DNA from: Candidatus Rubrimentiphilum sp.
GTDB lineage: Bacteria; Vulcanimicrobiota; Vulcanimicrobiia; Vulcanimicrobiales; Vulcanimicrobiaceae
DNA: 64,000 bases
Direction: 5' to 3'
NCBI GenBank assembly: GCA_035710515.1
Contig: DASTDE010000001.1
Coordinates: 682,001 to 746,000 of the forward strand
Shown in pieces: positions 7,804 through 19,359 of the stretch. The translations under genes and the position numbers were made by a program. Each line of letters starts with the position of its first letter. Positions within the stretch are counted from its first letter, which is position 1. The notes under the pieces are model-generated. The model was not told the origin of the DNA and ran no database searches. It saw nothing but the letters and a program-made list of their open reading frames with translations.

Positions 7804-10479
7804 TTAGGACCCGTACTGCTTTAGCAGAAACTCGATGGTCACGTTCCCTGCGATGGCATCGTGAGGAATGAGCGCATAGTGCCAAGGCTTGCCTCCATAA
7901 GTCCTTGCATGGTCGCTCGCCCAGCCACACCACTGGATGGCTACATCGCGTTTCGCCAGCACATCCTTCTCGAGCATCTGCGTCGCCATTTTTACTTCCA
8001 GCATGACGATGCCGTCATCCATTTCGGCAACGAAGTCAGGTTGATACTCAAGTTGGTCGTGACCGCTACGGTAGTACATCTGAAATTGGCCCTTTGCAGG
8101 TCTAAGCCATTTTAGCGCTTCCCGTTCAAGGATCACCGCTAACTTTCGTTCAGCTTCCGAGTGAAACTTGACGACGGACGTCAAGCACCTAGTGAAGCCA
8201 CCAAACAGATAGCGCGGCATGTTGCTCTTGTCAGCAGGCGAGATACGATAGTCGAGCGGCGGTTCGTCGAGGCTTGTGAATGCGCTAACCTTCAACTCCG
8301 TAAACCCCTGCCGAACTTCGTGGTGATACTCAACGGTATCATCGAGCCAAAAGTGATCCAACATCTGTGCATGCACCGCACGCGCAATGTCGTGCTGATA
8401 AAGAGAGAGCACGTTCCTGGCATCCTCCTCGGACAGGTAAGCCCTAAGGTGGTGGACGACTTGAGCTCCGAGGTCGTAGAGGAGATCGGCAGTCTCATCA
8501 TAGGCGACGTCGGGGAAGTCGATCAGCCCGCTTACGACGTAGTCTTCAAGCCTTTTCTCAACCACAATGCCAGGCACGAGCCCGATAACGTCGACGCGAT
8601 CAGTGCGTAGATGCTTGGCCCACAACTCCTGGCTCGGCGCGGGATAGCGCATTCCCGAAAGGTCGAGCCTAAAGGGACGAAAACCGGCCTTCACCTCACC
8701 TTTGGGTGCGACGACGATGCGCGGAATATCGATTGTCCGCTCGACGACAATTTTTGTTGCCGCTGCGATCACGGAAGCGAAATCGGACGCAGACCTTCCG
8801 ATTCCTGTCAATTCCAGCGGCGGTTGATAGAGCCGCTGCACCTCTTTGACGACCCGCGACTGTACCTCGGGTTTTATAAGGTATGAAACGCTGGGAACTT
8901 CTGCCGGAGACCGTGATAGTCTCTGCATTACCCCGTAGGCGAGCTGCGCGACTTTCTGGTCTTCAGGATTGACAAATGCTACGGTGGCGGGACCGCCTTC
9001 CCTTGACACCAGTGGTGCCGCAGCGCACCGAATGCCCAGTCCGGTAAGCACTGTCGGGGCCGCCAAAACGGTCGTGGTCTTACGAGACAGATCGGCTTCG
9101 TCGAGGATGAGCTGCTTCAGGCGAATTGGGGACTGCGGATCGTTTGCTTCATCCACGATCTCCTGAAAGCGGTCATGAGCGACAATATTTAGGCGATCAA
9201 CGGCCGTAGCGCCCGTCCGCCTGCCATACGGCAAGCGAAGCCCGCGCCCTATGCTCTGCTCGATCAGCGTACGGGCGTTAGCTGCGCGCAGAGGCACGAT
9301 TGTGTAGAGGTTAGTGACGTCCCAGCCTTCCTTCAGCATATTGACGTGGATAACGATCTCGACCGGATTATCGCTATGTTCGACCGTCAGCAGCTTCTGG
9401 ACAGTCTCCTCTTCCTTTACGCTGGAATCGACCTGGATTACCTTATCGGCGTAGCGCCCCTCGAAGAATGCGTCTGACTTGATTAGTTTTATCAATTCGC
9501 CAGCGTGTGTTGTATCGCGAGCGATCACCAACACGAACGGCTTGACGATCCGTTCGTCATTTTCACGAGCATAGGTCTCAAGATCGACCTTCACGCTCTC
9601 ATGCAGGCGGATGCCGTCTTCCAGTTTCATCGTCTGGATCGCCTCTGGCGATTTGCCCGCAGGGTTGAAGTTCTTGCGCGTGACGACAGCGGGCTCTTTG
9701 ACGAAGTGATCCTCCATCGCTCGAGCAAGCGGATAGTCGAAGATGACGTTCCTGAACGCAACCGGCCCGCGCGAGCTTTCGATGAAGGGCGTTGCGGTTA
9801 GCTCCAGTCCCAGGAGCGGCTTCAACTCATTGATCGCTCGCATTCCAGCCGTCGCACGATAACGGTGCGACTCATCCATGAGCAACACAAGGTCGGGCAA
9901 TCCAGCAAGATAATCAAAATAACTTTCGCCGATCTCTTCTCGAAACGAACGAATACGCGGTGAGCGTCCACCGCGAACTTCCGAGGAGATTTTCGCAATG
10001 TTGAAGATATTGATCGTCGTCGGAAAGAGCTGACCGCCCGACGCTATCCGGCGCTCAAAGGTCTCGCCAGTGGTGACCACTGGTGGCGAAACGGCGAACT
10101 CCGAGATCCCCTTGAACACATACTTCGGAGTGTTGGGAGTAAAGTCGGTGATCAGTTTATTGTAGATTGTGAGATTCGGCGCAAGAACGAAGAAATTATT
10201 GATGCCGTGCGCAATCCGGAGATAGGAAATGAACGCCCCCATCAGGCGCGTCTTGCCCACGCCCGTTGCAAGCGCGAAGCAGAGCGACGGAAACTCTCGC
10301 TCGAAATCCGTGACGCTCGGAAACTCGCTGCTGATCGTCGCCAAGGCCCTAACCAGATCGACGTCCTTCGACAGCGGCACGATCTCGGCCACGCGATCGA
10401 GGATTTCGAGGCTTTCGCGCTGCGGCCAACGCAAGCTCATGCGTCCGGCTATCGCGTTTACGTATCGAAGATTGCTCAT
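7804..10479 (-). CDS. res: type III restriction-modification endonuclease subunit (Res)
   Basis: ATP-dependent restriction subunit of 891 aa. N-terminal superfamily 2 helicase: Walker A ATGVGKT at 71-77, DESH box at 202-205, motif VI IEQSIGRGLRLP. The C-terminus holds a PD-(D/E)xK nuclease: PDF with Asp 815, then EVK with Glu 828 and Lys 830. Type III Res proteins work with a Mod partner, translocate or diffuse along DNA after recognising unmethylated sites, and cut nearby. It overlaps the stop of the methyltransferase gene by four bases (ATGA), so the two are translationally coupled. It is the last gene of a five-gene operon. Confidence 0.9.
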   Translation of the reverse strand: MSNLRYVNAIAGRMSLRWPQRESLEILDRVAEIVPLSKDVDLVRALATISSEFPSVTDFEREFPSLCFALATGVGKTRLMGAFISYLRIAHGINNFFVLAPNLTIYNKLITDFTPNTPKYVFKGISEFAVSPPVVTTGETFERRIASGGQLFPTTINIFNIAKISSEVRGGRSPRIRSFREEIGESYFDYLAGLPDLVLLMDESHRYRATAGMRAINELKPLLGLELTATPFIESSRGPVAFRNVIFDYPLARAMEDHFVKEPAVVTRKNFNPAGKSPEAIQTMKLEDGIRLHESVKVDLETYARENDERIVKPFVLVIARDTTHAGELIKLIKSDAFFEGRYADKVIQVDSSVKEEETVQKLLTVEHSDNPVEIVIHVNMLKEGWDVTNLYTIVPLRAANARTLIEQSIGRGLRLPYGRRTGATAVDRLNIVAHDRFQEIVDEANDPQSPIRLKQLILDEADLSRKTTTVLAAPTVLTGLGIRCAAAPLVSREGGPATVAFVNPEDQKVAQLAYGVMQRLSRSPAEVPSVSYLIKPEVQSRVVKEVQRLYQPPLELTGIGRSASDFASVIAAATKIVVERTIDIPRIVVAPKGEVKAGFRPFRLDLSGMRYPAPSQELWAKHLRTDRVDVIGLVPGIVVEKRLEDYVVSGLIDFPDVAYDETADLLYDLGAQVVHHLRAYLSEEDARNVLSLYQHDIARAVHAQMLDHFWLDDTVEYHHEVRQGFTELKVSAFTSLDEPPLDYRISPADKSNMPRYLFGGFTRCLTSVVKFHSEAERKLAVILEREALKWLRPAKGQFQMYYRSGHDQLEYQPDFVAEMDDGIVMLEVKMATQMLEKDVLAKRDVAIQWCGWASDHARTYGGKPWHYALIPHDAIAGNVTIEFLLKQYGS

Positions 10480-12107
10480 GTGTCCTCGTCGTCGAACAGT
10501 CCCGCCTGTTTCGGCCGCGTTATCTTCGGCTTAGACATCGGCAGGTTAGCGACGTTGAGGCTGTAGTCATCATGGCCCCACTCGCACCGACTGCGAATAT
10601 GGTTCGGGATCTTGCGCACCGTCAGGTTAGGCCATTCATCGAGGTTGCCACGGAAGGCCGAGCACAGAACCAGCAGCGACCTGCCCTCTCCGACCTCGTC
10701 GCTCAATGCCGCCAATTCATTTTGCGCCAAAGTCTGAGTCGTGACATAGAGGAAGTCTGTCTCCGAGGAACGGCCGTGCTGCCAATAGACATCGGGGCTG
10801 GGATCGTAACTAAATCCTTCCAGTTTGCACAGTGCCTGCGCCAGCATCTCGGCGTTATAGCGACTAGAGATGACCTCGCGTCCCCACTTGTCCTTTTGCA
10901 AGAGGGACGGCGCGAGCTCACAATATCGGAAGCCGCCGCCACCGTTCCAGCTGACGAGCTCCGAAATCCCGCCCCTATCGACTCCGTCAATAACCTTCTT
11001 GAGCCGTGGGATTACGTAGCTGTGGCAATGTTCTCCGACTTCAACCATCAACCAGCGTCGGCCCATTTTGTGGGCGACTGCTCCGGTCGTTCCCGAACCG
11101 GCGAATGAGTCTAGGACGATATCGCCCGGATCGGTTGTCACGTCCAATATCTTTTTTATGAGCCTTTCGGGCTTGGGTGTTCCAAACAGTTCCGATACGG
11201 GGCGCTCTGGAAACAGTTTTTTTAGTTCGTATTTTGCCTGGCGATTGTGGCCCGTTTCTTCCAGGGTTGCCCAAAGCGTTGATGGCGGGAGGCCTGGCAA
11301 ATCCGCAAGGTAGGTTCTCCTTCTAATACCAGTTCCGTCAGGTGTAAAACGTATCTCTCCCGTGCCAATCTTTTCCAGCAGTGTTTCCTTGGACCAGCGC
11401 CACCCATTTGGCGGTGGCTTGATGACATTGCCGTTCGGCGCCACCAGGTCAAATGTAAGGTTAACACGCGGGTGAGGGCTGTTTACCGGATTGCCATCGA
11501 ACCATGGCCCACGCGGATCGTTGTCTCGGTTCTTAAAGTGCGTTCGCTTTGCCCCGTCGTTGAGCCGATTAGGCCGCCAATCTCCCGACTTCGAATATAC
11601 TAGAATGTAATTGTGGTCCAGGGAGAATGTTTTTACGTCGTTATTGCTATTATCCGTGGAGCGCCATACAATACACGCTTGGAAGCAGGCGCGACCGAAT
11701 ATCTCGTCGCACAGCACCTTAAGGTAATGCGCCTCATTATCGTCGATCGTGATCCACATGGACCCCTCATCGCTCAACAGATTCCTAATAAGGTCAAGGC
11801 GGTCCCGCATCAAAGAAAGCCATACCGAGTGCTCTAAGCCATCGTCATAATGTTCAAAGGCGCTGCCTGTGTTATAGGGCGGGTCGATGAAGACGCATCG
11901 TACTTTACCCGCGAAGTCCTGCTCTAAGGCCTTCAGCCCGAGGAGGTTGTCACCGTGTATGAGGACATTGTCGAAAATGTCCCTATCACTCGTGCGCGCG
12001 GCGGCATGATAGCTTCTGGCCGCATCTTCGATGAGGATACGCGGCTCCAGCCGAGGCCGATTTTCCTTGCCAACCCAGGTCAGCTCAAGTCTTTGTTTTT
12101 TTGCCAC
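10476..12107 (-). CDS. mod: type III DNA methyltransferase (Mod), beta-class N6-adenine or N4-cytosine
   Basis: Site-specific DNA methyltransferase of 543 aa. The catalytic motif IV, DPPYNT (75-80), comes before the S-adenosylmethionine motif FAGSGTT (335-341), the order of beta-class enzymes such as type III Mod. The 250 residues between them would hold the target recognition domain. The sequence around the SAM motif (LFGTPKPERLIKKIL...DPGDIVLDSFAGSGTT) is typical of the family. About 190 C-terminal residues follow, perhaps for binding Res. It starts 8 nt after the ATPase stop and overlaps res by four bases. It should protect host DNA and supply the recognition specificity of the operon. Confidence 0.92.
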   Translation of the reverse strand: MAKKQRLELTWVGKENRPRLEPRILIEDAARSYHAAARTSDRDIFDNVLIHGDNLLGLKALEQDFAGKVRCVFIDPPYNTGSAFEHYDDGLEHSVWLSLMRDRLDLIRNLLSDEGSMWITIDDNEAHYLKVLCDEIFGRACFQACIVWRSTDNSNNDVKTFSLDHNYILVYSKSGDWRPNRLNDGAKRTHFKNRDNDPRGPWFDGNPVNSPHPRVNLTFDLVAPNGNVIKPPPNGWRWSKETLLEKIGTGEIRFTPDGTGIRRRTYLADLPGLPPSTLWATLEETGHNRQAKYELKKLFPERPVSELFGTPKPERLIKKILDVTTDPGDIVLDSFAGSGTTGAVAHKMGRRWLMVEVGEHCHSYVIPRLKKVIDGVDRGGISELVSWNGGGGFRYCELAPSLLQKDKWGREVISSRYNAEMLAQALCKLEGFSYDPSPDVYWQHGRSSETDFLYVTTQTLAQNELAALSDEVGEGRSLLVLCSAFRGNLDEWPNLTVRKIPNHIRSRCEWGHDDYSLNVANLPMSKPKITRPKQAGLFDDEDT

Positions 12108-12115
12108 CTACTGCC

Positions 12116-14437
12116 TTAGCTTGGCTTCTTGAGGGGATGGAGGCGGCGGCTGTCGCCATTGTTGCGCCAGAAACTCCCAGAGTTATCATTAGTGGGCCAA
12201 CCATGGTCCGGGTGAGAAAGCGCGTCCACTAACTGCACGACAAGTCTAGCGAAGCCAATCGCGTCTTGGTCGGGCAAATCGAATGAAATAGTCTTGAAGT
12301 GCGCGCCCACCGCGTTTCGCACCTGCGCGATGCTTGAGAGTTCATCCAGTATTGGTTTCAGTGGGATGTCTTTCGTGGCCGCTGCCTTAGAATCTGTTAA
12401 GCCATCTCGTATTTCTACGTGCAGCGCCTCGCGCAGCTTCTTGTCGATCGCGTCGAGTAGCTCGCCAAGGGTGTACGGGTTACCGTATCGACGTGGAAGG
12501 CGGCATTCATAACGCAGTGTTAGGTAGTCCAGGGCGTATTCTAGGATCACGCCGGCTTTGCCACATATCGATTGCGTATCAGGAGGCGTTTGCGCAAGCA
12601 AACCTTTCAGCAGATCGATTTCTGGCAGACAGCCTACGAGACTTATTCCGTCGCTGATGCTCCACTGCGTCAACTCAACGAACTGGCAAGGCCGGCCGGG
12701 CTTCAGGGACCCCCAACGGAATCGTTCGCGCCAGGGGCGATAGTGCGTTGTAACCAGAGTGTGGCAAAACTTCTCGCTAACCTCGTAGACCATACCGACG
12801 ACTCGTTCTACGTGGGGCTCATCCGCGCTGCCAAGCACGTCGTCCAGAATTAGCACGGTTTCGTCGGGCCGTTCCCGGGCAGCAAGCGCGAGGAACACGC
12901 ACAAACCAAGCGTATCGAGATGTGACTGGCTGAAGTAGGCCTGCGGAGGAGCTTCCTTACCTAAAAACCTGGCTTCCAGCTCTATTGAAGCGCGCTTCTT
13001 CGGATCCAGAGGCAATGCGATCTTGTCCAGCCCTTCGCCGGGGTGAACCTGCTCGTAGAGTTTTCCGACCTCTTGCGCGATCTCGCCGATTATCTTGTTC
13101 GTAAAAACTTGTCGCTGCTCGATGCAGTGCTTGAGTGCCTCTTCCAGTTTTGGCACCAATGTAGCCAATTGCGCACGGGTTGAGAGGTTTTGCTCGTAGC
13201 GATCGTTCGCCGCCGATAAGCTCTGGACGAACTTCTTTTCGCCGCGCCATGATGATTCCACCGCTGGCCATGACTGAGCTGTTGTCTTGTTGTCCTCGAG
13301 CCACGTCGAAACCGATTGTGGCTCAGCACTAGGCGCATTAATGGGCAAGACAACGTCAGCTTTCCATGCGTGACTTCCTACAGCTCGTTGATAGGAACTT
13401 ACGGCATCCACATAGTCGGAATTAAGTTGGGTCACCGCGGTTTGCGCAGCGGTCAAGGCTATTGCGCATTGCTGGCGTTTTCCGGTCGCCAATCGCAATA
13501 CATCCAAATCGGCGAGTCGGGCGGCAAGTGCGTCTGCCAGCCCCGCTGCATTCTCTTGACTGCGACACAGAGGACATTCGACGACACCAGGGTGAGCATG
13601 TAAGTATTTACTGCCTGCTTCCAATAGCTCCAATGTATCAGCGGCGGTACCGGTAGCGGCTTTCGCTGCTGCCAGCAACGCTTTGTCTGCTCTGGCCAAC
13701 GCTTCTGTGGCTTTCTCTAGCACCTTTTGGCGCGACTTGGCCTTTTCGGGGAAACTCGCAAGCGTGTCAAATGCGACTCGGAGCTTTCCGACGGCCGCGA
13801 TATCACCGTCTAGATCGGTCATCGGTTCGGCGATTCTCTGCTTGGCCCACGTCACCGCGTTCAGTCCCGTTGGCTCCCCGGCTGCTTCATAGAAGCCTTG
13901 TAGCTCCTGAAGGCTCTGGCCCTCGGCTTGCGCGGCGGCAGTGCATTCCTCGCGGAGGCTCTTTGTTTGCTTGCTCAACGCCTCTTCTGATGTCTCGAAA
14001 GTCGCTATATCGATAAAACGTTTGATGGCATCGTAACGCTTCGCTGGCTCCGCCTTGATCAGGTCAAGCATTTGCTGGCGCCGCAGCAATTCGATCCTAG
14101 GGCGTAGTGCCACGGGCGATACGCTCACGTCCCTTCCGATCATCTTGCCGGAACACGTGCCGGAACTGCTCTCCAATGCCACTGACAAATCCGCGAGGGA
14201 TTTTCCGGTCGTCGGCCAGTACTTTTCTAATCCCTGACCAAGGCCGTATCCTTCGAGTGATGATACGCGCTCGCGCGCGAGCAATTCAAAGGCATCGCAA
14301 ATCGTGGTCTTTCCCGTGCCGTTCTCACCATAGATCAGTGTAAGCTTCCGTGCTTTCTCAAAGTGCAGCGTGAACGTTGTAGAGGATCCTCGAAAAGCCG
14401 TGATGATAAGTGACTTGAGCGGAGCAGCCGTGCTCAT
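12116..14437 (-). CDS. Rad50/RloC-like ATPase with zinc-hook motif and HEPN-like C-terminus
   Basis: Protein of 773 aa with an SMC/Rad50-type split ATPase: Walker A GENGTGKT (37-44), signature-like SQSHLDTLG (503-511), Walker B LILDD (529-533) and an H-loop TTH (563-565). Between them are long coiled-coil-like stretches with a CPLC motif at 288-291, the position of a zinc hook in Rad50 and RloC. The 200 residues after the ATPase end in RNAVGAH (Arg 707 to His 713), which matches the Rx4-6H signature of HEPN ribonucleases. RloC and PrrC are restriction-linked anticodon nucleases with this general plan; the comparison is inference. It overlaps the preceding small gene by ATGA. Confidence 0.8.
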   Translation of the reverse strand: MSTAAPLKSLIITAFRGSSTTFTLHFEKARKLTLIYGENGTGKTTICDAFELLARERVSSLEGYGLGQGLEKYWPTTGKSLADLSVALESSSGTCSGKMIGRDVSVSPVALRPRIELLRRQQMLDLIKAEPAKRYDAIKRFIDIATFETSEEALSKQTKSLREECTAAAQAEGQSLQELQGFYEAAGEPTGLNAVTWAKQRIAEPMTDLDGDIAAVGKLRVAFDTLASFPEKAKSRQKVLEKATEALARADKALLAAAKAATGTAADTLELLEAGSKYLHAHPGVVECPLCRSQENAAGLADALAARLADLDVLRLATGKRQQCAIALTAAQTAVTQLNSDYVDAVSSYQRAVGSHAWKADVVLPINAPSAEPQSVSTWLEDNKTTAQSWPAVESSWRGEKKFVQSLSAANDRYEQNLSTRAQLATLVPKLEEALKHCIEQRQVFTNKIIGEIAQEVGKLYEQVHPGEGLDKIALPLDPKKRASIELEARFLGKEAPPQAYFSQSHLDTLGLCVFLALAARERPDETVLILDDVLGSADEPHVERVVGMVYEVSEKFCHTLVTTHYRPWRERFRWGSLKPGRPCQFVELTQWSISDGISLVGCLPEIDLLKGLLAQTPPDTQSICGKAGVILEYALDYLTLRYECRLPRRYGNPYTLGELLDAIDKKLREALHVEIRDGLTDSKAAATKDIPLKPILDELSSIAQVRNAVGAHFKTISFDLPDQDAIGFARLVVQLVDALSHPDHGWPTNDNSGSFWRNNGDSRRLHPLKKPS

Positions 14438-14619
14438 TCCGAGACCGCTTTTGCTTGAGCTAGGTCAATTTCGTGCTTCCAATCCTGGCCTCTCATGTCG
14501 CCGGCGGCAATCTTGGTGATCAGGGCGGCACGTTTGTCAGCTCGGAGTAACCCGGCTGCGATTAGGCGATCTACAACCTCGGCGGATAGAACTTCCGATG
14601 GCGATGAGTCAGCGGTCAC
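14434..14619 (-). CDS. 61-aa acidic small protein inside the defence operon, function unknown
   Basis: Short reading frame starting with GTG 14619, overlapping the helicase stop (GTGA) and the ATPase start (ATGA). The tight four-base overlaps on both sides argue that it is translated. The protein (61 aa) has a helical, charged sequence: SAEVVDRLIAAGLLRADKRAALITKIAAGDM, which can be read as two or three amphipathic helices. No enzyme motif is visible. It may be an adaptor linking helicase and ATPase, like the small middle components of ABC-ATPase conflict systems, which is inference. Confidence 0.7.
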   Translation of the reverse strand: MTADSSPSEVLSAEVVDRLIAAGLLRADKRAALITKIAAGDMRGQDWKHEIDLAQAKAVSE

Positions 14620-17477
14620 TGCACCCTCCAGCGAATCGTGAACAGCTCTTGGCGATTGACGGTTTGCTCCAGCTTTCCTTCGATTTGCGCGATGAGCTCG
14701 GCACGCTGCGCGTCGATCTTGTCCTGCGCGTCGAATAGCGTGCGGCGCTTCATGGATCGTTCGGCTTCAAGCGCCTTGACGGATTTTTGTCCAACTAGCT
14801 TTTCCTCTAACGTTAAGGCAACCGTGGCCGCTCTTCGGGCTTCCTTCATCTGCCGGTCCAGATCTTTTAGTTCGCGCTCCAAACCGACCTTGAGATCATC
14901 CGCCCAACCATCCAGCTTGTCGGCCTCCATCTCGAAGAAGCGAGCATTCCGTTCGGATATGCCGCGGCGAATTCGATCTTGCTGGTCTGCCAGCTGCTCG
15001 ACAAGTCGAAGTCTAACGGCATCGGGCACGGAGATCGGCGAGCCAATATGTGCGTCGATGGTGAGGAGACGACTAACGGTCTCTTCGTTTAGCGACGTGG
15101 TATCGTCACATTCACCAGCAGCCAACAAGTGGTCTTCGCTCTGCCCGAGAGCATCAATAGACAGGAGCACTACCACCATCCAGCCGGCTTTTCCGACTAA
15201 AGGTTCAACTACGCTGATACGCCCTTGGTGACTGGTATAGTCAAAATCAACCTCGCTGACTGGTAATTCACGCTTCAAAGCCCGATTGATAATAGCGCTG
15301 CCCAAGGGATTATTGAGGCGGAGGAGATGCGCTTCGCCTGATCGACGCGGTAACTCATAGAGACCAGTCGGTATCGACCGATCGCCAACCCATTCTGGCA
15401 GTGAGTCCAGGCGAAACGACGAGCTATTCGCGAAAAACGCTGACCCTGTCAGCTCATGCTCTGCGAGACGCATTAACTGACGCTCGAACTGTGCGAGATG
15501 CTGGCCCGTATCCTGATCGCGCAGTTTGAGCTTTTCGCGGACTTCGTCGTCGAAATTCTCCAAGAGTTTTCGACGGGCTAGGGTCATAGCTTCGCTGATC
15601 TCCGAACTCAACTCCAGTTGGAGGCTATCGAAAGCCGCCCGGATGTCGGCAGGCTGCCGGCACTGTTGGTAGATCTCTGCAATGCGCTTTTCGAAATCGA
15701 CCCCGGATTCGATGACACCTAGCACCTCGTCGCTAGCCCCAAATACGCCTTCGAAGAGCTGGAATTTCTCGGAAAGAAGCTGGTAGACGCGCTGGTCGGC
15801 CTCATTCTTACGATTGAGGAAGTTCACGACGACGACATCGTGCTTCTGCCCGTAACGGTGGCAGCGGCCGATGCGCTGCTCGATACGCTGCGGATTCCAC
15901 GGGAGGTCGTAATTGACAATCATTGAGCAAAACTGGAGGTTGATTCCCTCGGCGCCCGCCTCCGTCGCAATCATGATCTTTCCGCGATCTCGGAAATAAT
16001 CGACAAGAGCCGAGCGCATGTCCGCCGTGCGTGATCCGGTAACACGATCTGAGCCGGCATGGCGACCAAGCCAATCTTGATAGATGGCCCGAGACTGCTC
16101 ATCTGTGTTACTGCCGTTGAAGAGGACGATAGAATCTGCCCACGGGCTCTCCGCGAGCACGCGTAGTATGTATGATTGCGTGCGCCGCGACTCGGTAAAG
16201 ATGATCGCTTTCTCCGCGGCGCCAAACTCGCGAGCCTTTGCGAAACCAATGTTTAGGGCGGTGAGCAACGCGCGCCCTTTTGCGTTTTGTTCAATGGAGG
16301 TCGCCAGAGCCGTGAACCCGCGTAACTCGGCAATTTCCGTTTCGAGGGCCTGCACGTCGGCTTCGCTTAGCGGCTCTGCGACGTCATCTTCCGTCCATTC
16401 TTCCTGCGTATCGTGGAGAGCCTCATAGTCTTCAACGACTGCGTCGCTCAGAGAACCCACGCGCCGGCCTTTATCAAGCCTCAGCTCCAAACGTTTGGAG
16501 ATGGACGAAAGCGCCCCAGCGATCGCGAAGGATGACGACGCCAGAAGCTTGCGCAAGACCAGAGTCATGAGGGCACGCTGACCGGATGGCAAAGCCTGCA
16601 AATTATCGCGTTGCAGGTACGCAGTAACGAGGTTATAGAGCCGGTCCTCAGCCTCGTCCGGGCTGAATTCTTGCAGGATCGCCTGGCGTTTGGTGTACGG
16701 GACATAGGCCGTAACCTGCCGACGCAGAGTGCGGTGACAAATTGGCTTTAACCGTTGGCGCAAAATATCGAATGCTCGCTCTTGAGTGACACCGGAGAAC
16801 TGTTCGCGAAAGCTGTTGATATCGCCGAAAGAATGCTCGTCGATGAAGCTAACGAGGCCGAACAATTCTAGTAGCGTATTTTGAAGCGGCGTCGCCGTCA
16901 GTAAGAGCTTGTTGCGCTCTGCGAGTGCTACCTTAAGGGTATTGGCGATAATGTTTGACGGCTTATAGACGTTGCGCAATCTGTGGGCCTCGTCCATAAC
17001 TACCAAATCCCATGGCGTTGCAGCTACTTCCGCCGCTTTGCTGCGGGCGAACTGATAGGAGCAAATAACGACGCCATCGTGCGGCTGGAACGGACTTAGG
17101 TTCCCAGCCTTAATCGCAGCGTTAAAGGACCGCGCTTCAAGTATTGTACAAGGAATGAAAAATTTTTCGTTTAGTTCCTGAACCCACTGCTTACGAAGGT
17201 TCGCCGGCACGATGATCAGGATACGACGCCTGCCTTCAGCCCAGCGCTGAGAGATTACTAGTCCAGCCTCAATAGTTTTGCCTAGGCCCACCTCGTCGGC
17301 AAGCAGAGCCCCCTTGGACAGTGGTGACGCGAAAGCAAAAAGGGCCGCGTCGACCTGATGCGGGTTTACATCGACCTGCGCGCCCGCAACCGCCACGGCC
17401 AAGCGCTCGGCGCTGTCAGACGAGCGTCGTCGCGTGAGATTGTGTGCGATATACTTTGCTTGATGGTCGGTTATCAT
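14616..17477 (-). CDS. SNF2/RapA-type DNA helicase-translocase, first gene of the defence operon
   Basis: Superfamily 2 SNF2-type motor of 953 aa. Motif I is DEVGLGKT (61-68) and motif II DEAH (162-165). The second lobe has IFTESRRTQSYIL and the motif V-VI run TEAGAEGINLQ...IEQRIGRCHRYGQ. The C-terminal 300 residues include a long coiled-coil-like region rich in Arg, Glu and Lys. The start at ATG 17477 is chosen because the longer frame (to 17756) runs into the divergent gene; the DNA upstream is A+T-rich and probably carries the operon promoter. Relatives include RapA and the DrmD helicase of class 1 DISARM, but the other DISARM proteins are missing. It likely remodels or pumps DNA for the type III enzymes. 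Confidence 0.85.
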   Translation of the reverse strand: MITDHQAKYIAHNLTRRRSSDSAERLAVAVAGAQVDVNPHQVDAALFAFASPLSKGALLADEVGLGKTIEAGLVISQRWAEGRRRILIIVPANLRKQWVQELNEKFFIPCTILEARSFNAAIKAGNLSPFQPHDGVVICSYQFARSKAAEVAATPWDLVVMDEAHRLRNVYKPSNIIANTLKVALAERNKLLLTATPLQNTLLELFGLVSFIDEHSFGDINSFREQFSGVTQERAFDILRQRLKPICHRTLRRQVTAYVPYTKRQAILQEFSPDEAEDRLYNLVTAYLQRDNLQALPSGQRALMTLVLRKLLASSSFAIAGALSSISKRLELRLDKGRRVGSLSDAVVEDYEALHDTQEEWTEDDVAEPLSEADVQALETEIAELRGFTALATSIEQNAKGRALLTALNIGFAKAREFGAAEKAIIFTESRRTQSYILRVLAESPWADSIVLFNGSNTDEQSRAIYQDWLGRHAGSDRVTGSRTADMRSALVDYFRDRGKIMIATEAGAEGINLQFCSMIVNYDLPWNPQRIEQRIGRCHRYGQKHDVVVVNFLNRKNEADQRVYQLLSEKFQLFEGVFGASDEVLGVIESGVDFEKRIAEIYQQCRQPADIRAAFDSLQLELSSEISEAMTLARRKLLENFDDEVREKLKLRDQDTGQHLAQFERQLMRLAEHELTGSAFFANSSSFRLDSLPEWVGDRSIPTGLYELPRRSGEAHLLRLNNPLGSAIINRALKRELPVSEVDFDYTSHQGRISVVEPLVGKAGWMVVVLLSIDALGQSEDHLLAAGECDDTTSLNEETVSRLLTIDAHIGSPISVPDAVRLRLVEQLADQQDRIRRGISERNARFFEMEADKLDGWADDLKVGLERELKDLDRQMKEARRAATVALTLEEKLVGQKSVKALEAERSMKRRTLFDAQDKIDAQRAELIAQIEGKLEQTVNRQELFTIRWRVQ

Positions 17478-17575
17478 TTTGTAATTCTTTTTTGTAATAG
17501 AACGGTGGGATGCAAGTGGATAGATCGTTGTTAGATGTCGGGTTGCAAGACGAACTTGGTCTACTAGCTCATGGC

Positions 17576-17617
17576 CTTTCGCTGCGCTCGGGCGGGTCCG
17601 ACAGGCCAGCCATGACA
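17576..17617. repeat. dispersed intergenic repeat, copy 2 (degenerate)
   Basis: CTGCGCTCGGGCGGGTCCGACAGG followed by CATGACA closely parallels copy 3 at 20286-20346. It lies in the divergent spacer between the defence operon and the next gene, at the right-hand edge of the island. Confidence 0.55.
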
Positions 17618-17646
17618 GTTTGAGCGCCGCATCGTAGTTAACCCCC

Positions 17647-19359
17647 ATGGACCATTCGGCCCGGGTTAGATATGCGTTCGTCTTCCTGTTGGCAGTTGTC
17701 GCGGCGGCGCCGTGGGTGCCGGATTTGCGGCGCGACTTCGGCCATCCGTTGGGCAACCCTGGAATCTCGTTCGATTATAACGGCGTGATTATGAGCGCCG
17801 CGCCGTGGGCTGCCCGAGCCGGCGCAAAGGTTGGAACTCACATCGATCTTGCCGGCCAAACACCCGCTCAGCGCTACATCGGCATTTTTACGGAGACCGC
17901 GGATCCAGGAGTGACCGTGGCGATTCCGCTGACCTCCGGAACGCGGCACTACACGGCTCGGATAATTACTAGGCCGGAAACTCCAAACGTGCCGGTGATC
18001 GTCTTGCGGCAGCTCGCTGCGCTGCTCTTTCTGATCCTGGGCGCGTTTCTCGTCCTAAAGCGGCCGAACATCGCAACCTGGGCGTTCTTCATCTTTTCAA
18101 TGAGCGGTGGCGCGCCGATCAACGATTTTATCCTGATGGGACCGAGCTGGTGGTCTCCCATAGCGCTGATCTGGACCAACCTCCTCACGTGGGTGCCGCC
18201 GTTCTTTGGCGCGATCTTCGCGCTGCATTTGCTTTACGATGGCCCGCTGCCGGTTTGGCGCCGGCGGCTGGAATGGGCAGCGTATGCGGTGATGCTGGCA
18301 ACCGTCGCAAGCGGCGTCGCTGAAATTGTGCTTTTCATCTACTACGGCATCGATTGGGGCGCCGGACAGTTTATTGCGACCGCGCTCACATTGCTGGCGT
18401 ACGTCAGTATACCGGCGATTCTGGTCGCGACCTACGCAGAAGGCGACCTCGCGACGCGCGAACGTTTGCGCTGGGTCATCTGGGCGTTTTCAATTGCCGC
18501 GGTGGCGGTGATCGCGGATTTGCTCGGCTCGCAAGGCAATCTGGGCGTGTACGAGACGACCTATCTCGAACATTCGCTGCTGACGCTCGCGTACACGCTG
18601 CTGCCTGCGGTGGCGGTGATCTACACGATCCTCAAGCACCGCATCATCGACGTGAATGTTGCGATCAGCCGCGCCGTCGTCTATACTGCGATTTCAGCGC
18701 TCGTCGTCGGCGTGTTTGCGATGGTCGATTTGTTTTTCTCGCGGGCGCTTTCGTCGGCGCGCATCGGGTTGATTGCGGACATGGGGCTGGCGTTGATCCT
18801 CGGATTTTCGTTTAACGCCTTCCACGCGCGGGTCGACAAGTTAATGGACTGGCTGTTCTTTCGCGCCCGGCATCGCGCCGAGGAGCACATCGCGACGGTC
18901 GCGTCGGCGATTCCCTACGCGCGCAGCGAGGAGCACGTCAACCGTCTGCTGATCGACGAGCCGGTGCGCGCGTTTGCTCTGGCCGAGGGCGTGTTAACGA
19001 GCGTCCAGCCCGACGGGAAGCTGCAATTCGTGCACAGCGCCGGCAGAGTTGATGAGGATGCGCCGACCGACGACGCCGAGTCGCTCATCGCGATTCTGAA
19101 AGCGCAGCGTAAGCCATGGCGGCTGACGGAACAGCACATGGCGCTGGCCGTGCCAATTTTTTCTGACGCCGAACTTGAGGCGATCGCATTTTACGCCCCG
19201 CACTTGAACGGTACCGACATCGATAGCGACGAGCTGGCGCTCATCGAACGCTGCGCCATCGCCGCGGGGGGCGCCTACGCGCGCTTCAAGGCCGCGGCCT
19301 TACGCCAGCGCGTCGCTGAGCTTGAGGCGGAACTGAAAGCGACGGTCCCGGCGACCTAA
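17647..19359 (+). CDS. PDZ-like, multi-spanning membrane protein with GAF-like C-terminus
   Basis: Protein of 570 aa. An N-terminal membrane anchor is followed by a short PDZ-like segment (APWAARAGAKVGTHIDLAG), then about eight hydrophobic spans between residues 115 and 390, then a soluble C-terminal part of about 180 residues that looks like a GAF domain and ends in a coiled coil. The layout matches that of the gene at 20722-22599, so the two are probably paralogues. No histidine kinase, cyclase or phosphatase module follows the GAF region. A sensing role at the membrane is inference. Its stop overlaps the convergent thioesterase gene by four bases. Confidence 0.65.
   Translation: MDHSARVRYAFVFLLAVVAAAPWVPDLRRDFGHPLGNPGISFDYNGVIMSAAPWAARAGAKVGTHIDLAGQTPAQRYIGIFTETADPGVTVAIPLTSGTRHYTARIITRPETPNVPVIVLRQLAALLFLILGAFLVLKRPNIATWAFFIFSMSGGAPINDFILMGPSWWSPIALIWTNLLTWVPPFFGAIFALHLLYDGPLPVWRRRLEWAAYAVMLATVASGVAEIVLFIYYGIDWGAGQFIATALTLLAYVSIPAILVATYAEGDLATRERLRWVIWAFSIAAVAVIADLLGSQGNLGVYETTYLEHSLLTLAYTLLPAVAVIYTILKHRIIDVNVAISRAVVYTAISALVVGVFAMVDLFFSRALSSARIGLIADMGLALILGFSFNAFHARVDKLMDWLFFRARHRAEEHIATVASAIPYARSEEHVNRLLIDEPVRAFALAEGVLTSVQPDGKLQFVHSAGRVDEDAPTDDAESLIAILKAQRKPWRLTEQHMALAVPIFSDAELEAIAFYAPHLNGTDIDSDELALIERCAIAAGGAYARFKAAALRQRVAELEAELKATVPAT

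Follow-up and report, generated by a model that had tools for sequence, protein, structure and literature searches.

A small protein and a zinc-hook ABC ATPase with a predicted HEPN RNase domain as a candidate guard module in an SNF2-helicase/type III restriction operon

RNases can keep watch over restriction systems and punish anti-restriction phages, as PrrC and PARIS show, and the well-studied example of such a guard embedded in a restriction operon belongs to type I. PrrC guards a type I system and is always linked to type Ic restriction-modification (R-M) (PMC2610378). RloC, with a size range of 658–897 aa, carries the triad Arg-x3-Glu-x36-52-His (PMC2610378) and is under the control of both its zinc hook and DNA breaks (PMC2610378, PMC12707154). 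It is rarely linked to R-M (8 of 72), the partner being type I or type III, so that a type III link had already been reported (PMC2610378); the contrast drawn in a first-pass annotation of the locus studied here, that known PrrC and RloC cases go mostly with type I, is therefore valid for PrrC only. Fusions of ABC ATPases to HEPN domains and links between HEPN proteins and R-M as such are likewise described in the passages found of PMC3710099. APECO1_4465 and ERFG_01251 (Anantharaman et al. 2013), compared here by description only, join an ABC ATPase to a C-terminal HEPN domain with an Rx4-6H motif, as does our protein; fusions of this type come from prophages or CRISPR/R-M surroundings, and the passages found describe no type III plus SNF2 operon for them.

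The window analyzed here is a 64,000-nucleotide stretch from Candidatus Rubrimentiphilum sp. (GCA_035710515.1, contig DASTDE010000001.1, positions 682,001 to 746,000). Our findings on fold, conserved residues, operon, recurrence and the separability of core and module were obtained by computation. The minus strand carries an operon in the order DrmD-like SNF2 helicase, 61-aa protein, ABC-HEPN, type III Mod and type III Res, with the following features.

14616..17477, minus strand: DrmD-like SNF2 helicase, 953 aa from the ATG at 17477 (NCBIfam, PADLOC, length of relatives)
14434..14619, minus strand: 61-aa small partner protein (sequence; ORF at the same place in relatives)
12116..14437, minus strand: ABC-HEPN, a coiled-coil ABC ATPase with a predicted C-terminal HEPN domain, 773 aa (ORF, ATG start)
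14306..14329, minus strand: Walker A GENGTGKT, residues 37-44 (sequence and conservation)
13565..13576, minus strand: zinc-hook motif CPLC, residues 288-291, separating the two coiled-coil halves (conservation and AlphaFold2 model)
12836..12853, minus strand: Walker B LILDDV, residues 529-534, with Asp where the catalytic Glu is usual
12191..12640, minus strand: predicted HEPN domain, about residues 600-749 (AlphaFold2 and VIA-align)
12299..12319, minus strand: predicted RNase motif RNAVGAH, residues 707-713 (conservation)
10476..12107, minus strand: type III DNA methyltransferase Mod, 543 aa (Pfam, PADLOC and motifs)
7804..10479, minus strand: type III restriction subunit Res, 891 aa, with a C-terminal PD...E.K nuclease motif (PADLOC and motifs)

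All four motifs of the first-pass annotation (Walker A, CPLC, Walker B and RNAVGAH) were found where it had placed them in the 773-aa ORF; the DrmD-like helicase and the conserved small protein are operon partners that it had not named. The GTG start of the small-protein gene overlaps the helicase stop (GTGA) and its stop overlaps the ABC-HEPN start (ATGA), each by 4 nt, while Mod lies 8 bp downstream of ABC-HEPN and Res overlaps Mod by 4 nt. The helicase scored 679 bits against NCBIfam DISARM_DrmD_b, under the cut-off of 950, and its best PADLOC match was DrmD (4.9e-203), with DrmA weaker on the same ORF. The ORF at 14616-17756, 1046 aa from a TTG, is an over-long start call; the ATG at 17477 fits the approximately 953 aa of relatives and clears a plus-strand gene at 17647. 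Mod matched Pfam N6_N4_Mtase (3.9e-45) and PADLOC MTase_III (2.6e-199), with DPP.NT and F.GSGTT motifs conserved, and Res matched PADLOC REase_III (7.5e-185), with GVGKT, DESH, TATP and PDF...E.K conserved in 32 relatives. Both subunits carry intact type III R-M motifs, those of a methylase in Mod and those of a helicase and a PD..ExK nuclease in Res. A promoter and terminator scan gave nothing beyond chance level.

The C-terminal domain of ABC-HEPN, about residues 600-749, is predicted to adopt a HEPN fold. An AlphaFold2 model of residues 600-773 built from 63 sequences reached a pLDDT of 88.9 and a pTM of 0.86, and in a VIA-align comparison of this model the first 31 PDB entries were all HEPN (among them 2hsb, Csm6, HEPN-MNT toxins, sacsin, AbiV and MtlR), with 2hsb best at Z 9.6 (rmsd 2.9, 117 aligned residues) and the first non-HEPN entry at Z 5.2. 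For a helical domain a Z of 9.6 is no more than modest, so the HEPN case rests on the uniformly HEPN list together with the motif. This kinship was seen through structure comparison and was missed by sequence methods alone: Pfam HEPN families matched none of the C-terminal domains of 63 members, and hmmsearch of the domain against PDB sequences returned chance matches only. Foldseek alone gave no match to the domain with E below 0.001, and its top row, the viral M2-1 core, was rejected as a helical look-alike (VIA-align Z only 4.5); a BFVD structure search returned no match. The full-length AlphaFold2 model consists of an ABC head, a coiled coil and a distinct C-terminal domain, gave Z values of 22.7-26.2 against SMC/Rad50 heads across the 50 entries listed, and places the CPLC hook in the break between the long coiled-coil helices. 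Model, structure comparison and alignment thus bear out the earlier proposal of a zinc-hook ABC ATPase fused to a HEPN domain with conserved motif residues, including the expected likeness to HEPN folds; only the start of the C-terminal section had to be moved, from residue 575 to near residue 600, as the stretch 575-600 is still part of the ATPase head.

A profile-guided scan with one genome per species gave 76 loci with ABC-HEPN relatives, and conservation was counted in an alignment of 76 proteins from these and from loci collected earlier, 71 of which reach the HEPN motif. The relatives occur in at least ten phyla, and overall identity in the alignment goes down to about 20-30%. Walker A residues G37, N39, G42 and K43 were identical in all 74 relatives covering Walker A, both cysteines of the CPxC hook were kept in 72 of 76, and Walker B D532 and D533 as well as D539 were identical in 76 of 76. 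Where the sequence reaches residue 707, Arg707 was kept in 65 of 71 relatives, Asn708 in 66 of 71 and His713 in 71 of 71, which upholds the two residues on which the first reading of the motif turned; all three were present in every type III-linked member of the alignment. RNAVGAH is an Rx5H version of the HEPN Rx4-6H motif, with Asn as the polar residue that follows the Arg. Glu633 was kept in 69 of 76 relatives, five of the others being gaps, and position +4 from it is Asp, against the Lys or Arg of HEPN Ex3[KR]. In isolation such motifs are weak, since 5000 shuffles of the 773-aa protein produced R[NDH]x3-5H in 22%, CxxC in 18% and RNx4H in 1.9% of cases; it is their retention at such low identity that makes them real.

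In the tree, members without the Arg have a branch of their own. In the sister ABC proteins L010:7554-10218, L004:85-2475 and L005:943-3417 the His is kept and the HEPN-motif Arg is lost; one such sister, on a Halorhabdus plasmid, sits between BREX pglX and pglZ with its own small ORF. The HEPN domain of these sisters is possibly a non-catalytic one in BREX. Four relatives stop before the HEPN domain; the relatives of about 612 aa at L059:3974-5812, L064:9956-11791, L075:9992-11842 and L077:7725-9560 end at the expected start of this domain, for the most part preceded by a small ORF and with no R-M genes in the vicinity. Because the sisters have lost the Arg and four relatives have no HEPN domain, RNase activity would not be essential to every member. 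Four short Streptomyces/Flavobacteria members lack the hook and keep RNxxGAH. Many relatives carry a zinc-ribbon-like CxxC...CxC tail after the HEPN domain (C-termini of L006, L009 and L010), which is degenerate in the window protein (residues 740-773, 12119-12217).

The order DrmD, small protein, ABC-HEPN, (accessory), Mod, (accessory), Res is repeated in many loci from at least ten phyla. Of 73 full-length relatives, 40 lie next to Mod/Res, spread over ten named phyla (Pseudomonadota, Acidobacteriota, Armatimonadota, Omnitrophota, Chloroflexota, Elusimicrobiota, Ignavibacteriota, Myxococcota, Nitrospirota and Verrucomicrobiota), which makes the tie to type III restriction, first proposed from this single window, far stronger. 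In 68 of the 76 loci the ATPase gene has a small ORF ahead of it, and most of these ORFs carry a ..GLL....EDWRLxIE.. pattern. Pairwise ABC-HEPN distances follow those of Res (rho 0.72) and DrmD (0.49), with 0 of 999 permutations as high; these correlations fit joint descent, and species history may account for part of them. Among 298 genomes of the Sphingopyxis order, 7 had a match to Res, 13 to the helicase and 2 to ABC-HEPN. Phage records yielded no ABC-HEPN copies, and viral contigs one marginal match.

Core and insert also occur apart. Locus L091 has helicase, Mod and Res without the small protein and ABC-HEPN, and Hymenobacter and Fibrella plasmids (Bacteroidota) carry the pair without the restriction core, which marks the small protein and ABC-HEPN as a module with a preferred place. 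At L091, the gene that overlaps the end of Res encodes an RloC/PrrC-type (Pfam AAA_13) protein, in which a CPFC hook and an R-x3-E...H pattern are present, and a more distant operon, L095, likewise has such an RloC-type ATPase at its end. Judging from these two loci, an RloC-type gene appears to stand in for the ABC-HEPN pair where the latter is absent.

Genes of AIPR/AbiU-like, RhuM, Dsr2-like or YhcG PDDEXK nuclease type occupy slots that separate ABC-HEPN, Mod and Res, which makes the operon itself a hotspot for extra effectors; coordinates of accessory genes are L013:12326-14119, L047:12319-14088, L037:7891-9777, L032:13982-14965, L026:15206-18763 and L025:15520-16728. In a Sphingopyxis locus, a 1195-aa protein downstream of Res (L065:18478-22065) has an N-terminal Swt1-like HEPN domain fused to an SNF2 helicase. 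The small protein and ABC-HEPN pair lies immediately upstream of recF and gyrB in an Acidobacteria MAG (L055:9765-16377). Two loci are decayed copies: in Hankyongella (L016:6719-12315) the helicase and ABC genes are frame-broken and Mod/Res missing, and L100:4808-6208 holds fragments of Res and helicase only.

Like PrrC with the type Ic system EcoPrrI, the locus would have an ABC ATPase with a HEPN RNase inside an R-M operon as its guard, but PrrC has no hook, is only about half as large and goes with type I. With DISARM it shares a DrmD-family SNF2 helicase in a DNA-modification operon, whereas type III Mod and Res stand in place of DrmA, DrmB and DrmC; an assignment to DISARM was rejected, as PADLOC listed Drm matches for the helicase only among nine large neighborhood ORFs. 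In the open papers searched we found no description of a type III/SNF2/ABC-HEPN operon or of anything ARMADA-like, prior mention elsewhere being possible, and the passages found of the 2013 HEPN survey and of a 2026 BREX review give no description of the five-gene operon. The SNF2-type III core may thus be an unrecognized defense system.

It is highly unlikely, in our view, that we are dealing with a genuine RloC anticodon nuclease that lies in a type III locus by chance. The layout is shared, with a Rad50-like ABC head split by a zinc-hook (CxxC) coiled coil, a C-terminal HEPN-class RNase domain and R-M genes sometimes near, and 773 aa falls within the RloC size range. However, the RloC triad is absent: the position four residues ahead of the conserved Glu633 is taken by Gly629, and the Arg occurs instead at the classical Rx5H place, as RN-x4-H, whereas RloC-type control proteins displayed R65-x3-E69, H107 and NDGSH. 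The match to Pfam AAA_13 reached 26.5 bits against a cut-off of 36 and covered residues 26-58 only, and hhalign of the C-terminal domain with genuine RloC C-termini gave a probability of 0.2%, leaving C-terminal kinship undetected by sequence; in the profile comparison with RloC the ATPase part aligned around Walker B. Unlike RloC, ABC-HEPN also comes with a conserved small partner and keeps a fixed position in an SNF2-type III operon. On these sequence comparisons, membership of RloC was rejected: ABC-HEPN would work like RloC in design and is not one of its members, and independent construction is the best explanation of the likeness.

The best PADLOC matches of ABC-HEPN were the SMC/Rad50-like ATPases LmuB of Lamassu (1.5e-15) and Mad3 of MADS (1.4e-13), and Lamassu LmuB/LmuC too pairs an SMC-like ATPase with a small (middle) protein (PMC10586767). 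These likenesses and the stand-alone copies in Bacteroidota would suit a stand-alone Lamassu-like or toxin-antitoxin defense unit hitch-hiking in a defense island, which we regard as quite improbable given the fixed position between helicase and Mod, the overlapping genes, the many phyla and the correlation of ABC-HEPN distances with Res. Lamassu itself was rejected: no LmuA was among the PADLOC matches listed for the operon ORFs, the effector domain of ABC-HEPN is fused rather than separate, and its Walker B residue is Asp. The pair might instead be a working part of the restriction machine, such as a DNA-end sensor or clamp for helicase and Res, with a non-catalytic HEPN domain that binds RNA or protein. 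Its long shared history with DrmD and Res would agree with such a role, as would the Arg loss in BREX-linked and other sisters, the missing domain in four relatives and the existence of non-catalytic HEPN families noted in the passages found of PMC3710099. This is on balance unlikely, since core and pair each occur without the other at L091 and on the Bacteroidota plasmids, and the Arg/Asn/His motif is intact in every type III-linked aligned member.

In our preferred reading, the small protein and ABC-HEPN probably form a two-gene guard module inside the SNF2-helicase/type III operon that would sense DNA breaks or restriction failure and cleave RNA. HEPN RNases need a composite active site formed from two HEPN domains. 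Contacts at the zinc hook and between the ATP-bound heads would join two ABC-HEPN chains, and this pairing would bring two HEPN domains together as such a site. Linear DNA ends, or Res-Mod or helicase complexes stalled or inhibited on phage DNA, may shift the state of the ATPase heads, a step drawn from Rad50, RloC and PrrC in which restriction failure as the trigger is suggested by analogy only. The shift would free the predicted RNase centered on Arg707, Asn708 and His713, which may cleave RNA, perhaps tRNA, and so stop protein synthesis in the infected cell. The small protein, whose reading frame overlaps those of both neighbors, probably restrains the ATPase/RNase or couples it to the restriction complex.

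More broadly, we tentatively suggest a portable guard, independent of RloC and PrrC, that may serve SNF2-type III systems in about ten phyla, with Arg-less sisters in BREX-type loci and with RloC-type genes as substitutes. A type III counterpart of this kind, conserved and widespread, differing in catalytic layout, equipped with a defined small partner and represented by natural loci with and without the insert, would make the guard idea directly testable. If true, guarding by a suicidal RNase would be a general, convergent feature of ATP-dependent restriction beyond type I.
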